Origin: Patescibacteria group bacterium
GTDB lineage: Bacteria > Patescibacteriota > JABMPQ01 > JAHIRA01
Direction: 5' to 3'
NCBI GenBank assembly: GCA_018818205.1
Contig: JAHISJ010000007.1
Location: 1 to 51,197 of the forward strand
DNA: 51,197 bases
The position numbers and the translations under genes were made by a program. Shown here piece after piece: positions 19,641-44,027 of the stretch (positions within the stretch are counted from its first letter, which is position 1; the number at the start of each line of letters is the position of its first letter). Below the pieces are notes generated by a model that worked only from the letters and a program-made list of their open reading frames with translations, was not told the origin of the DNA and did not search any database.

Positions 19641-20600
19641 ATGAAGTATACTTGCCTTTTTTCTGAAATAGGTAAAAAAGATGTGGCACGTGCCGGCGGT
19701 AAGGGTGCGTCGCTTGGAGAAATGACTAAAAAGGGATTCCCCGTACCTCCCGGTTTTGTTGTTGTAAGTTTTGCGTTTGAGAGTTTTTTGAAAGTAACAG
19801 ATTTACATGTAGAAATCAGCGCATTACTTGACACGGTCAATATACATGAAATACATACTGTTGAGAACGCTGCGTCAAAAATACAGAATTTGATTCTTCA
19901 AGCATATATGCCACATGAAATAGAAGAACACATTTTATGTTCTTTCAAAAAACTTAATACACCTTATGTCGCGGTGAGATCAAGTGCTACCGCGGAAGAT
20001 TCTTTAGAAGCTGCGTGGGCGGGCCAGCTTGAAAGTTATTTAAACACAACAGAAAAAACACTACTTTTGCATGTTCAGAAATGTTGGGCGTCACTTTTTA
20101 CACCACGAGCCATTTTTTATCGCTTAGAAAAAAATCTTATAAAAAATCCAATTTCCGTTGCAGTTGTTGTGCAAAAGATGATTCAAAGTGACGCGTCAGG
20201 TGTTGCGTTTTCTGTTCATCCTGTGACAGAAGATAAAAATCAGATGATTGTAGAAGCGTCGTATGGTTTGGGTGAGGCGGTTGTGTCAGGGAGTGTAACC
20301 CCGGATAGCTATGTGGTTCAAAAAAAGCCTCTTGCTCTATATGATATAAACGTGTGCGTTCAAACAAAGGGATTGTATCGTGGAAAAGAGGGTAATGAAT
20401 GGAAAAAAATCCCCCAAAAAAAAGGAGAGAGACAAGTACTTTTAGATAAAGAAATTCTTGAGCTTGCAAGAATTATTATGACCCAAGAAGAACATTGTGG
20501 CTTTCCGGTGGATGTTGAATGGGCGCTGGAAAAAGGAAAATTTTACGTCTTACAAAGTCGCCCCATCACTACACTAAAAAACAAAAAGCTCGCTTCATAA
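19641..20600 (+). CDS. Stand-alone PEP-synthase/PPDK-type ATP-grasp domain
   Basis: 319 residues, equal to only the N-terminal PPDK_N (PF01326-type) domain. Motifs: AGGKGASLGEMTKKGFPVPPGFVV (residues ~14-37), VAVRSSATAEDSLEAAWAGQLESYL, DASGVAFSVHPVT, EASYGLGEAVVSGSVTPDSYVV, and the terminal VDVEWALEKGKFYVLQSRPITTL. In PEP synthase and rifampicin phosphotransferase this domain binds ATP and phosphorylates a His on a swivelling domain in the same chain. That swivelling domain is absent here; the ORF stops cleanly at the domain boundary. Three separate proteins carrying the missing middle and His domains are encoded 3-8 kb away on the other strand, so this looks like the kinase half of a split enzyme. 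Confidence 0.88.
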   Translation: MKYTCLFSEIGKKDVARAGGKGASLGEMTKKGFPVPPGFVVVSFAFESFLKVTDLHVEISALLDTVNIHEIHTVENAASKIQNLILQAYMPHEIEEHILCSFKKLNTPYVAVRSSATAEDSLEAAWAGQLESYLNTTEKTLLLHVQKCWASLFTPRAIFYRLEKNLIKNPISVAVVVQKMIQSDASGVAFSVHPVTEDKNQMIVEASYGLGEAVVSGSVTPDSYVVQKKPLALYDINVCVQTKGLYRGKEGNEWKKIPQKKGERQVLLDKEILELARIIMTQEEHCGFPVDVEWALEKGKFYVLQSRPITTLKNKKLAS

Positions 20601-38771: not shown

Positions 38772-39537
38772 GCTTTTTCTAGAGATAGGGGAAAGAGCGG
38801 TACGAGAGGCGGGGAGTATTCTTATTAAGCGCTATGGAAAGGAAGTTTCAGTCAAAACAAAAAAAGATGGTACACAAGTATCCAAACTAGATATTCTTTC
38901 TGAGCAGAGTATTATTCGGACACTTACAGAAAGCGATATGGGTTTTTCTATTAGAGGAGAGGAGACTAATGCAATCCATAGCGGCAGTGATTATACCTGG
39001 ATTATTGATCCACTTTCAAACACCAAAGGATATTTACAAAAAAATGGTGACTTTGCAATTAGCCTAGCACTTCTTGATAAAACAGGAGTGTTTTTAGGGT
39101 TTGTGTTTGATCCGATGCATGATGATTTGTATATCGCTCAACGAAATTCCGGATCATTTTTAAATAAGGAGAAAATTCAGACAGTAAAAAAACGGCAAAA
39201 AAATCCATCAGTTTTCATTAACCGTTGGTGTAAAGAGTCATTTCCTGATATGATGAAATTAACAAGCGACGTGACTGTTTTAAGCGATTCGATAGCACTT
39301 GCAATGTGTAGAAATAGTACTTCCAATAAGCCGCACACTCTTGTGCTTTATAGCGATGTATTTAGTACAGCAGCAGCTTCACTTTTCTTAAAAGAGACAG
39401 GGTGCGTTTGCACTGATATGCAGGGCAACGAACTCGATTTTAATGGTATGTCTTCAAAAAAGGAGTATGGCATTATCTGTTCTGCTGACAAAATGTTTCA
39501 TGCGCATATTATGAAAACAATAACCAACTTTTTATGA
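38764..39537 (+). CDS. IMPase-like protein with an altered catalytic site
   Basis: 257 residues. It has the overall order of the IMPase family: an N-terminal helix pair, then RGEET (the usual metal Glu), WIIDPLSNTKGYLQ, GFVFDPMHDDLYIAQ, and a C-terminal YSDVFSTAAASLFLKETGCV. The core metal motif, normally DPLDGT, is DPLSNT, which loses the second Asp and the Gly. The usual C-terminal W-D is S-D. It may be a catalytically weak paralogue of the IMPase two genes upstream, or a regulatory subunit. It overlaps gpmI by 8 bp and the HAD gene by an ATGA, so it is translationally coupled on both sides. Confidence 0.8.
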   Translation: MNELFLEIGERAVREAGSILIKRYGKEVSVKTKKDGTQVSKLDILSEQSIIRTLTESDMGFSIRGEETNAIHSGSDYTWIIDPLSNTKGYLQKNGDFAISLALLDKTGVFLGFVFDPMHDDLYIAQRNSGSFLNKEKIQTVKKRQKNPSVFINRWCKESFPDMMKLTSDVTVLSDSIALAMCRNSTSNKPHTLVLYSDVFSTAAASLFLKETGCVCTDMQGNELDFNGMSSKKEYGIICSADKMFHAHIMKTITNFL

Positions 39538-40199
39538 TCACAAATCAAAAGAACATTATATTTGATCTCGATGGCGTGGTTATTGATAGCAATCCGTCGT
39601 GGACAAGAGGGGTTGAGCAATTTACTCAGGAGCTTGGCGTACCAAAGGGGATACCTTTTGAACTCAGAAAAAAAATGCATGGTATGCGCGTGTTTGAGGC
39701 AGTAACATTGTTAAAAGCGAAATTTGGTTTTAAGCCTAAAGTTGATGATCTTATGGATAGAATAGATGCGATTATGCGAAACCTGCACGCAGAAAAGACT
39801 ACACTGTTTCCCGGTACCAGAGATCTTCTCTCTGAACTTGAAGCAAACCATTTTACCACGGCTCTAGCAACAAGTTCGACTCGGTCACTTACAGAATACG
39901 TACTTTCAAGGTTCAATCTAAAGCCGTATTTTGATTATGTAACAACGGGAGAAGATGTACTCAAAAGCAAACCAGACCCAGAAATCTTTTTGCTAACTGC
40001 TGCGCATATGCAAAAAGACCCAAAAGACTGTATTGTTGTTGAAGATTCGCTTTTAGGCTTGCAGGCCGCAAAAGATGCTGGTATGGACGTTATTGCGGTT
40101 TCGAATAATGGAGATTTTGATCCTGAGGAAATTACACAGATTAAGCCGACTCATGTGGTTAAGGATCTTAGTGATATTGATTTGGGGATGCTTGGGTAG
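39534..40199 (+). CDS. HAD-superfamily phosphatase (beta-phosphoglucomutase-like)
   Basis: 221 residues. Motif I DLDGVVIDS (residues ~11-19), a helical cap inserted after it, motif II ALATSSTRSLTEYVL, motif III KSKPDPEIFLL, and motif IV VVEDSLLGLQAAKDAGMDVIAV. The motifs fit a sugar-phosphate phosphatase or phosphoglucomutase of this subgroup. It is last in the mutase-IMPase-gpmI-IMPase-like operon and is followed by a terminator. Confidence 0.93.
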   Translation: MITNQKNIIFDLDGVVIDSNPSWTRGVEQFTQELGVPKGIPFELRKKMHGMRVFEAVTLLKAKFGFKPKVDDLMDRIDAIMRNLHAEKTTLFPGTRDLLSELEANHFTTALATSSTRSLTEYVLSRFNLKPYFDYVTTGEDVLKSKPDPEIFLLTAAHMQKDPKDCIVVEDSLLGLQAAKDAGMDVIAVSNNGDFDPEEITQIKPTHVVKDLSDIDLGMLG

Positions 40200-40222: not shown

Positions 40223-40250
40223 AAAAAACTGCTGAGATGAGCAGTTTTTT
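40223..40250 (+). terminator. Terminator of the sugar-phosphate operon
   Basis: AAAAAACTGCT, loop GAGATG, AGCAGTTTTTT, directly after the HAD gene. The A/T arms allow function in both directions. Confidence 0.85.
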
Positions 40251-40271: not shown

Positions 40272-40370
40272 AAATGAATACTCGAGCAACTTCTTTTCAA
40301 ACAGTACACTTCGTTCTGATTTTTAAGAAAAAATAGCCTGTTTGAAAAGAAGTTGCTCGAGTATTCATTT
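40272..40370. repeat. Exact 33-bp inverted repeat around a 33-nt spacer
   Basis: Left arm 40272-40304 (AAATGAATACTCGAGCAACT...) and right arm 40338-40370 are perfect reverse complements over all 33 positions. The spacer 40305-40337 is also 33 nt and contains TTTTTAAGAAAAA. No coding frame is present. It is not a terminator, because no T-tract follows either arm. Candidates are a small mobile element end pair, a recombination site, or a long structured RNA between two convergent genes. Confidence 0.9.
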
Positions 40371-40418: not shown

Positions 40419-41393
40419 CTACCGCAGTCCGCACGCTTTTCTTATCTCTCGCATATTCTTTTCGGCAATACGTCTAGCTTCTGTTGTACCCTTTTCTAAA
40501 ATGTCATCAACCTTTTTTGGGTTTTCTAGAAGTTCCGCGCGTTTTTCTCTAAATGGCGCAAAGTAGTCTGCGATGTCTTTTGCGAGCGTTTCTTTCAGAT
40601 CGGAGTATTTGAGATCACCTTTATTATGTGCATCTTGGAACTCAGCAAACGTAGATGGTTTTGAAAATTCGGCAAGAAGGGTAAAAAGGTTTGCGACGCC
40701 GGGACTTTTTGTCTGAGTATTATCTCCAGTGTCAGTCACTGCCCGTTTAATTTTATGTTTAATTTCTTCTGGTGTATCTGAGAGTGCAATGCCATCATCG
40801 CCTGTTTTGCTCATTTTTTGGTCAGGATGTTTAAGTGACATAATACGTTTACCTTGTGAGAGAATCGGTTTTGGGTAGGGGAATAAATCGGCAAACGTTG
40901 TATTAAACTTTTTTGCAATCTGACGGGTGAGCTCAATATGAGGAACCTGGTCTTCACCAACCGGGACTTCTTCAGCTTTGTAAAGAAGGATGTCTGCAGC
41001 CATGAGGACGGGGTAAGAAAAGAGACCAAGATTTACAAAGTCCGGGTGCTTTTCCACTTTTTCTTTGAACGTGGGGACCCGCTCGAGCCATGAAACCGGC
41101 GTTATGGAGCCCAAAATCCATGCAAGCTCAACGTGCTCTGGAACATGTGATTGTACAAAAATAATACACTTGTCTGGGTCGAGTCCTGCGGCAAGGTAGT
41201 CTATAACGACTTCTCTAATTTCTTCTTGGCGTTTGGATGGGTCGTAAGGAGTGGTCATGCCATGAAGATCCACAACGGAGTAAATGGCATGATGCGTCTC
41301 TTGCATCAAAACCCAGTTTTTAATGGCACCAAGGTAGTTGCCAAGATGAATTCTTCCTGAAGGTCTGAGGCCTGAAAAGAGTGTTTTTTCCAT
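40419..41393 (-). CDS. trpS: Tryptophanyl-tRNA synthetase
   Basis: 324 residues, a class I synthetase. The HIGH-type motif is SGRIHLGNYLGAI (residues ~12-24), with YSVVDLHGMTTPYD, MAADILLYKAEEVPVGEDQVPHIELTRQIA, and the KMSKT loop near residue 195. It charges tRNA-Trp. A TTGTCG-N18-TACAAT promoter lies upstream (41421-41450, minus strand). Confidence 0.97.
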   Translation of the reverse strand: MEKTLFSGLRPSGRIHLGNYLGAIKNWVLMQETHHAIYSVVDLHGMTTPYDPSKRQEEIREVVIDYLAAGLDPDKCIIFVQSHVPEHVELAWILGSITPVSWLERVPTFKEKVEKHPDFVNLGLFSYPVLMAADILLYKAEEVPVGEDQVPHIELTRQIAKKFNTTFADLFPYPKPILSQGKRIMSLKHPDQKMSKTGDDGIALSDTPEEIKHKIKRAVTDTGDNTQTKSPGVANLFTLLAEFSKPSTFAEFQDAHNKGDLKYSDLKETLAKDIADYFAPFREKRAELLENPKKVDDILEKGTTEARRIAEKNMREIRKACGLR

Positions 41394-41602: not shown

Positions 41603-43870
41603 TTATTTCTCGTGGAACCAGGTGGAAGCACCTGCTCTGCGAGGAATTTTTTCCATTTTCAGACTCACTTTGTAGTGAGCAATGGTTGGAATCCAACCTG
41701 ACGAATTTTGCTTCACCATGTAGATGAACAATTTGTCACGTTCAATTGTGGTGTCAACTTTGACCCAAGTTTTCTCTTTGAACTGGACGTGTGTTACGGC
41801 GAACCGTTTGGTTCCGCCATCACTCTCAATCCGCGCCCATGAGAATGTGGGGTCAACGCCTTCAACATAGATATAGCGATCGTTTCCAGCAACTTTGAGT
41901 ACGACGATGTACTTATCTGTCGGTAGGAACTCCTTGTAACAAACAGTATCAATCATCTTGCCGGTGCAGGTTTGCACGGTGCAACGTCCAGACTTACAAG
42001 TCTCGCTTGTCTTGCAATCGGCGTTGGTTTTGCAACCGGCCACGCATTTGGTTGCTGTGCAAATGTAATGAACTCCAAGTGGTTTGCAAATGGTATCGTT
42101 TGAGCACGCAAAGGCCGTGCAACGACCTGACATGCACATTTGTCCGGAGCACGCAGCGTTTGTGGTGCAGCCGGCCACGCACTTGCTTGAAGTGCAAATG
42201 TAATGAGCGCCAAGTTGTTTGCAAATGGTATCGTTTGAGCACACTTGGGCTGTGCAACGACCAGAAACACAAATTTGTCCGGAGCACGCAGCGTTTGTTA
42301 TGCACCCAGCAATACACTTGGCACTTGTACAGATGTACTGCGCACCAAAGATTTTACAATCGGTGTCTTTTGAGCAGATCTTTGCTTTGCAGCGGCCGCT
42401 TTGACACGTTTCGCCAGCTTTGCAAGAAGCATTGCTGATGCATCCCAGCACACATTTACCGCTTACACAGATGTAATTTGGTCCCTTTGCTTTGCAACTG
42501 GTGTCAAAAGTGCAGGGTTTTGATTCGGGAAGAAGCTCTGGCTGTGGTTCTGGACCGAGACCACCGTCATCGACAACTGGTTCCGGTTGTGGCTCAGGCC
42601 CAGGTTCCGGCCTGGGAGGTTCTGTGTAGATCGATTTGCAGTGCTTAGTAGCACTGTCACACAAGTAGCCGCCGACCAAACAGTCAGCGTGCGTTTTGCA
42701 ATTATTGACACACGCATTGAAATGCGGGTGGCAATATTCCGCTGCATAACAATCGGTGTGCATAGCACACATCAAAGCACAATTCTGTTTGGCGCAAGTG
42801 TATCCTGACGGACAGTCCGTCACAGTTTTACAAGATGGAATTTTAAGGCATTTGCCTTTTTTAATGTCGCAGTAGTATCCTTCAACACAATCAAATGGAT
42901 TAACGCATTCCGGTTTCTCGGAACACATACTGTTAAGGCAAACTAATTTTGAATCGTTGCACTCTGCATCATTGTTGCACAGACGCAGACATTTTGAATC
43001 ACGACAACCATAAGCACTCGGGCAGTCAGACAATGATTTACAGGTTGGTAGCGAAACACATTTTTCTTTAACACAATGAAATCCTGTTTTACACTCGAAT
43101 GAGTTAAAACATTCAATTTTGAAGCCGCACATCATATCCGCGCGGCAGATAAAGGGTTTTGTGCAATCACTGTTTAAAGCGCAAAGTTTCCAGCAATGCC
43201 CGTCACGGCAGCTGTAGCCCGGATCGCAATCCGTGGCATTGGTGCATGATTTCATTTCCGGCAAAACAATTTCAGGAACAACTTCGCCAACTTGTTCGGT
43301 CAGTTCAGTGGGCTCCACGTTTTCCGGCGGAGACTCCTCTGGATTTTCCGGCAAGTTTTCACCAGCGTCGCCTTCGGTGACTTCTGCTGGCTCGATGTTT
43401 TCAATGAGAGTTCGATCACCACCACCATCTTCTGGCGTGGTTTCTTTGATGATAACATCCTGGCACTTGCCATTCACACAAACCTGACCGCCAGTGCAGT
43501 CAGTGTTTGCGTTACAAGTATTGCTGTTGCCGGGAGGCAAGCACAAATTCTTTTGGCACGTGAAGTCTTTATCAATTTTTGCGCACTCGGTGTGCTGCTC
43601 ACAATTTTGTGCGATGTCGCAAAAGCCTTTGTAGCAAAATCCTTCCTTGGCACCCAAATGGGCGCAGTCAGAGGATTTTGTACATTTTTTGGTGCAATAT
43701 TTCTTATTCGCCTTGTGGGCGACTTGGATACAAACATTCGGCGCATCACAATCTTCTTTCGATTCGCATTCCTGCAAGTTTTTTCCGCAGCTGGGCAGAA
43801 TAATGATAGCAAAAAATAAGGACAACAATAATGATAGAATTGTTTGGGTCTTGTGGTGTTTATACCACAT
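41603..43870 (-). CDS. Large cysteine-repeat (Dickkopf/EB-like) surface lipoprotein
   Basis: 755 residues from ATG 43870 (MWYKHHKTQTIL), which follows AGGAGG by 5 nt; the track's start is 13 codons upstream. A lipoprotein signal ends in IILPSCGKN. The chain is a series of small disulfide-type modules of the form CxxxxDCxxGxxCxxxxCxxxC. It is interrupted by a Pro/Glu linker (PPRPEPGPEPQPEP), then by tandem 45-residue repeats (ICTSSKCVAGCTTNAACSGQ). A non-repeat domain of ~105 residues closes it. Modules like this are common in Myxococcota and Bradymonadales surface proteins and rare, to my knowledge, in Patescibacteria. Binding or attachment is the likely role. Confidence 0.82.
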   Translation of the reverse strand: MWYKHHKTQTILSLLLSLFFAIIILPSCGKNLQECESKEDCDAPNVCIQVAHKANKKYCTKKCTKSSDCAHLGAKEGFCYKGFCDIAQNCEQHTECAKIDKDFTCQKNLCLPPGNSNTCNANTDCTGGQVCVNGKCQDVIIKETTPEDGGGDRTLIENIEPAEVTEGDAGENLPENPEESPPENVEPTELTEQVGEVVPEIVLPEMKSCTNATDCDPGYSCRDGHCWKLCALNSDCTKPFICRADMMCGFKIECFNSFECKTGFHCVKEKCVSLPTCKSLSDCPSAYGCRDSKCLRLCNNDAECNDSKLVCLNSMCSEKPECVNPFDCVEGYYCDIKKGKCLKIPSCKTVTDCPSGYTCAKQNCALMCAMHTDCYAAEYCHPHFNACVNNCKTHADCLVGGYLCDSATKHCKSIYTEPPRPEPGPEPQPEPVVDDGGLGPEPQPELLPESKPCTFDTSCKAKGPNYICVSGKCVLGCISNASCKAGETCQSGRCKAKICSKDTDCKIFGAQYICTSAKCIAGCITNAACSGQICVSGRCTAQVCSNDTICKQLGAHYICTSSKCVAGCTTNAACSGQMCMSGRCTAFACSNDTICKPLGVHYICTATKCVAGCKTNADCKTSETCKSGRCTVQTCTGKMIDTVCYKEFLPTDKYIVVLKVAGNDRYIYVEGVDPTFSWARIESDGGTKRFAVTHVQFKEKTWVKVDTTIERDKLFIYMVKQNSSGWIPTIAHYKVSLKMEKIPRRAGASTWFHEK
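42010..42420 (-). repeat. 135-bp tandem coding repeats in the cysteine-repeat lipoprotein
   Basis: Nearly identical segments recur every 135 bp (45 codons). For example TCCGGAGCACGCAGCGTTTG is at 42143 and 42278 on the plus strand. About three units are clear. The low divergence points to recent duplication within the gene. Confidence 0.75.
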
Positions 43871-44027
43871 AGTTTCCTCCTGCATGGTGAAAAAGTACGA
43901 GATCCCCACGAGGAGCGCGAGGATTGTACACGTTACCCTAGAAAAAAGTAACGTTTAAGCAAAAAAATGTTTTTTTAAGCCTGAAACAATACTTTTTTAC
44001 AAAGGTACGAAAAACGGATAGCCTGTT

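Follow-up and report, generated by a model that had tools for sequence, protein, structure and literature searches.

A perfect inverted repeat between two convergent genes, found in the 51,197-nt stretch of patescibacterial DNA analysed here (the window), is one of five hairpins dispersed in its genome that share their loop and the innermost base pairs of their stem but not their outer arms. We propose, with about an even chance of being right, that a non-coding intergenic core of ~45 nt has been dispersed and that its outer arms were made or overwritten at each locus by snap-back (template-switch) copying. The dispersal of the core over five loci, which is read directly from the family and from the contrast between loop and arms, is well supported by the sequences, and we infer that the core has moved.

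In the window sequence, the two 33-nt arms (40272-40304 and 40338-40370) are 100% complementary and enclose 33 nt. From its base composition, the window would be expected to contain ~2e-13 inverted repeats whose 33-bp arms are perfect and lie 0-100 nt apart; the inverted repeat at 40272-40370 is real and not a product of chance. This confirms the initial annotation, in which the 33-33-33 arrangement was described as beyond chance and devoid of any gene or T-tract, both of which are indeed absent from 40272-40370. The features of this region are the following:

39534-40199, plus strand, left neighbour, HAD-family hydrolase (PF13419, 1.7e-33)
40223-40250, no strand assigned, ordinary bidirectional terminator-like hairpin AAAAAACTGCT-gagatg-AGCAGTTTTTT, with 11-bp arms, an A-run and a T-run, read in the sequence
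40272-40304, no strand assigned, arm 1 of the perfect inverted repeat, of which the outer 27 nt (40272-40298) are locus-specific
40299-40343, minus strand, conserved 45-nt core made of the inner 6-bp stem AAACAG/CTGTTT and the loop, recurring at four other loci
40305-40337, minus strand, conserved 33-nt loop, reading GCTATTTTTTCTTAAAAATCAGAACGAAGTGTA on the minus strand
40338-40370, no strand assigned, arm 2, exact reverse complement of arm 1
40419-41393, minus strand, right neighbour, tryptophanyl-tRNA synthetase, trpS (PF00579, 1.2e-65; the Trp assignment comes from sequence resemblance)

The hydrolase (stop at 40199) and trpS (stop at 40419) converge around the hairpin, which lies 72 nt past the stop of the former and 48 nt past that of the latter. 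The terminator-like hairpin at 40223-40250 adjoins the element but is separate from it.

The host genome, a patescibacterial draft of 1.41 Mb in 29 contigs, was searched with the window region as query. Four more loci, two on C5 and one each on C7 and C8, match the region by its centre alone, and each match is the middle of an inverted repeat of its own:

C5:63939-64033 (C5a), arms of 31 nt with 3 mismatches
C7:24777-24865, arms of 27 nt with 3 mismatches
C8:1914-1997, arms of 25 nt with 1 mismatch
near C5:84378-84466, second C5 copy, decayed

Under a covariance model of the five, the copies score 75.7-93.6 bits and the next real locus of the genome 18.9 bits; weak model matches at C6, C23 and window position 20091 were set aside, as they are not hairpins with the core. 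An inverted-repeat census was made over 272 kb (C5, C7, C8 and the window) of the 1.41-Mb genome. There, the inverted repeats that combine arms of ≥20 nt with a loop of ≥30 nt and score above 14 for the arms all belong to this family, and the window copy is the longest perfect inverted repeat. The whole family is described from five copies in one draft genome. The initial annotation had recommended a search for other genomic copies, and the four found are copies of the centre and not of the arms. Its suggestion of a minimal mobile element comes close, given five copies dispersed in the genome, but only the centre is repeated, without the 33-bp arms, hence the element is not bounded by terminal inverted repeats (TIRs).

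The recurring unit comprises a loop of 33-35 nt, with the pattern GCYATTTTTTCT-N-AAAAATCAGARCRAAGTGTA, and the innermost 6 bp of the stem, AAAYAG/CTRTTT, which are kept with one T-A to C-G exchange. In contrast, the remaining 19-27 bp on the outside of each stem have no relationship from copy to copy, although they are self-complementary inside each. When the next 20 nt of the outer arms are compared between copies without gaps, 2-9 positions agree 5' of the core and 3-11 positions 3' of it, with scores mostly at the level of shuffled sequences. The loops differ among copies by 1-9 alignment positions; that of the window is identical to C5:63970-64002 at 32 of 33 positions and matches the remaining copies at 26-30 of 33-35. 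For the same window/C5a pair, just 6 of 20 outer-arm positions are identical, no better than shuffled sequences, and the C7 copy behaves likewise (loop 30/35, outer arm 2/20). At the rate of the loop, taken at its upper 95% bound, 14 or more differences in 20 between the window and C5a would have a probability of ~1e-8, such pairwise rate contrasts presuming that the loops are not kept alike via gene conversion or strong selection. Because the window and C5a differ so little in the loop (32/33) and so much in the outer arm (6/20), the making or replacement of the arms at each locus is favoured, and a separate origin of the outer arms at each locus is well supported. That the arms arose recently or are actively maintained, as put forward in the initial annotation, is likewise supported, since they are locus-specific and perfect around a shared loop. 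The 5' arms are pyrimidine-rich close to the core, and the stems could on this account be partly inherited.

In the snap-back scheme, the inherited unit would be the ~45-nt core, that is the AAAYAG/CTRTTT inner stem around its 33-35-nt loop, and the outer arms, not being inherited, would form afresh or be replaced in full at every locus. Having reached a new intergenic site, the core would fold through pairing of its 6-bp inner stem while DNA is being synthesised, the nascent 3' end would prime snap-back copying (template switching) of the DNA immediately outside the core, and the reverse complement of 20-27 nt of flank would be written on the opposite side of the core. Repeated rounds would erase mismatches; a young copy, such as that of the window, would be perfect, and an old one (C5:84378-84466) would decay. 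Arms produced by template switching are expected to be perfect, of limited length and of locus-specific sequence, as observed, and differences in age would fit the graded states of the copies, from 33/33 perfect through 1-3 mismatches to decayed. As in hairpins of template-switch origin, the arms are locus-specific, mutually complementary and not inherited with the core. We infer template switching as the source of the arms and, in the same way, which arm served as the template. As a tentative extension, we suggest a mobile 45-nt core that supplies itself with a stem wherever it lands, the inner 6 bp serving as a built-in primer.

Template switching can create a perfect stem in a single event and repair later mismatches (PMC8794818), and the quasipalindromes it leaves (PMC8794818; PMC7202029) resemble the present hairpins in their perfect, locus-specific reverse-complement arms, made or repaired in one copying event. 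They start, however, from a local quasipalindrome, whereas here the same 45-nt core centres five unrelated loci. The process has also been proposed for the perfect coding palindromes of hairworm mitochondria (PMC6649704), where long perfect arms vary in sequence while keeping their identity to each other; those repeats are coding and mitochondrial, and the element described here is non-coding, bacterial and endowed with a conserved loop.

Selection on a structured non-coding element, RNA or DNA, with a protein-bound loop and a stem that drifted by compensatory changes from a common ancestor, is a possible but unlikely explanation. It would account for the strong covariation of the stems, in which 12 of 18 pairs are changed on both sides (score of 0.728, against 0.259 for shuffled sequences and at most 0.222 for slid partners), as well as for the conserved loop and for the inner 6 bp conserved with their T-A to C-G exchange. 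Further folding of the loop is possible in all copies, either as two mini-hairpins, an A/T one and a two-pair one around GAA or AAA (97.5% of cells paired), or as one extended RNA hairpin (90% of cells paired). Covariation within the loop, however, does not rise above shuffles in the five copies under either fold, and no Rfam family matches the window at gathering score. The pairwise contrast weighs further against selection, the window and C5a differing at 1 of 33 loop positions and at 14 of 20 outer-arm positions with pairing kept: since compensatory drift takes two matching changes per pair, it ought to lag behind single substitutions and not to outpace them manyfold. This argument would fail if the loop were extremely constrained or had repeatedly been converted from one copy to another. 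The mixed orientations of the neighbouring genes offer no regulatory logic. The reading of the window element as a hairpin RNA, one of the options of the initial annotation, is possible.

Distinctly less probable is a mobile element that duplicates its target inversely during insertion itself, for example by a single-strand mechanism of the HUH/Y1 type, and not through later replication errors. It predicts the same arm anatomy as snap-back copying, and the genome holds two Y1-domain genes, one for an IS200-like transposase of 147 aa and one for a longer Y1-domain protein. Against it, the core does not lie near either of them (the element is absent from the 1.5-kb flanks of both) and no reverse transcriptase domain was detected in the genome. 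IS200/IS605 elements are not known to yield an inverted-duplication product of this sort. As a separate observation, the 147-aa transposase gene (L098:1471-1914, on C23) has CCGC-rich hairpins on either side and directly follows a truncated nucleotide-sugar epimerase-like frame, an arrangement suggestive of a gene interrupted by an insertion.

A classical MITE, with terminal inverted repeats and mobilised by a transposase, is improbable. The element is small, dispersed, intergenic and carries an inverted repeat, and like MITEs (reviewed in PMC10969869) it is non-coding and present in several copies. The terminal repeats of a MITE should nevertheless be its shared part, whereas here the arms differ in all copies (5' outer arms 2-9/20) and the centre alone is common, so that the reading would hold only if the TIR were redefined as the inner 6 bp. 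Target-site duplications, which the initial annotation had proposed to look for, are not evident on inspection at the arm edges of the five copies.

In families of the REP/BIME, ERIC and Bcr type, the stem sequence is common to the members. Here the stems are unrelated, the loop and the inner 6 bp are common and the copy number is very low (5). The element resembles these and other bacterial stem-loop families (PMC2817692, PMC2267715) in being short, dispersed, intergenic and hairpin-forming. A RAYT-linked REP/BIME assignment is likewise not borne out by five copies without a shared stem, none of them in the 1.5-kb flanks of the two Y1 genes. Repetitive, mobile-looking small intergenic hairpins are also known from organelle genomes (PMC2800124, where the double-hairpin elements of Allomyces are cited), but in the sponge elements the stems are conserved and the loops vary (PMC2800124), the reverse of the present element. 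The same reversal separates it from integron attC sites, which have conserved outer core sites (RYYYAAC/GTTRRRY) and a variable loop.

All five copies are wholly intergenic, compared with ~7% of 99-nt stretches in these contigs. The flanking genes converge on two of them (the window and queA/gyrA), run in the same direction around one, just after tyrS, and diverge from the other two, of which one is upstream of cysS and one on C8. These mixed orientations argue against a terminator or a single fixed regulatory role. A bidirectional terminator, or a stabiliser of mRNA 3' ends between convergent genes, is thus as improbable as the MITE: the two convergent gaps and the position just after tyrS would suit it, but two copies sit between divergent genes, the stems are not followed by a T-tract, and separate ordinary terminator-like hairpins adjoin the window copy and C5a. 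The features of an intrinsic terminator, with a T-tract after a GC-rich stem located 3' of genes, are not seen here; the initial annotation had likewise noted that the repeat is not a terminator. Genes for aminoacyl-tRNA synthetases (trpS, tyrS, cysS) adjoin three of the five copies and queA a fourth, a post hoc observation that may be due to chance. Regulation of these synthetases was considered and dropped, the copies lying downstream of two such genes and upstream of one.

An artefact of assembly or library preparation, by fold-back or a hairpin adapter, is very improbable. An overlooked hairpin adapter would leave just such a constant loop between inverted flanks, and the loops of the window and C5a have 9 nt (ACTTCGTTC) in common with an ONT adapter. 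Yet this word is present in only 2 of the 5 copies, with an uncorrected p of 0.02-0.03 among 25 comparisons, the PacBio, Illumina and Nextera adapters are unmatched, the loops vary between copies, and the arms end after 25-33 nt and give way to different genes. Five intergenic copies out of five, against the ~7% background, make a random artefact unlikely. The assembly fold-back, named in the initial annotation as the finding that would undo its reading, is disfavoured by five loci that share a non-adapter loop, all intergenic and with different intact genes on each side. Least credible of all, and also raised there, is a site at which a recombinase or invertase flips the 33-nt centre: perfect arms do flank a central segment, but they offer no common sequence for recognition by a recombinase, the centre is non-coding, and there is no evidence of both orientations.

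Outside this genome, the core was searched for on several scales. No match was found in phages and plasmids with blastn, nor in viral contigs with two core patterns; the strict core pattern has no copy in 85k genomes, and the pattern of the two mini-hairpins revealed no wider family in 380 genomes. Relatives within the family, order and class have no copy, the nearest relatives compared being of the same family or order. The window arm has no further copy in its own genome (241-nt query), in viral contigs, or in phages or plasmids, and its use as a guide to a known phage was disfavoured, as it is unmatched in viral contigs. A loose core pattern gave 54 matches; the only ones in comparable hairpins are that of RA.bin39, a single imperfect AT-rich match, and a few with arms of just 7-9 bp. 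Model searches matched this genome only among 7 genomes of the class, and this genome and RA.bin39 (G160) only among 287 of the phylum. The RA.bin39 hairpin (JAKLGL010000001.1; L063:1744-1806) scores 40.9 bits, with an E of 9.7e-5 per genome among the 287 searched. Like the family, it encloses an A/T mini-hairpin and a GCGAAGC mini-hairpin between its arms, the 3' arm starting with CTATTT; unlike it, it is a single copy with a loop of 29 nt and is only partly alike. Common descent of the two is possible.

If snap-back copying around a mobile core is correct, each insertion would turn the neighbouring DNA into a perfect site-specific hairpin, and the core would represent minimal mobile elements of a class whose defining part is the loop and not the ends. 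Dispersed palindromes of bacteria are usually detected through stems or ends that the copies have in common. A family recognisable by its loop alone, with stems re-made at each locus, would escape the usual repeat finders. It would also supply a natural set of dated template-switch products, the shared core marking the same element and each pair of arms recording a separate event. A mutational mechanism could then generate covariation, which is usually taken to prove that an RNA structure is selected, and this would be a warning for the interpretation of covariation.

Some minor observations were made on the same contigs. In the window, the region 41603-43909 (minus strand) encodes a protein of 768 aa that is rich in cysteine and repeats short cysteine modules; its only Pfam match is DUF7107, and our impression is that it is atypical for Patescibacteria and may conceivably have been acquired from another group. 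The 272-kb census revealed a second, unrelated dispersed palindromic repeat (ACCCCCTCCTAACCTCCCCCTT...AAGGGG) at C5:21229-21328 and C7:75748-75835, in which the arms are shared and the loops different, the opposite of the loop-conserved family. It also revealed, near a contig end (C7:210-309), a 20-bp imperfect stem enclosing two apparent strong hairpins, CATCTGC/GCAGATG and GCTTTGTGC/GCACAAAGC, in the layout of a three-way junction.
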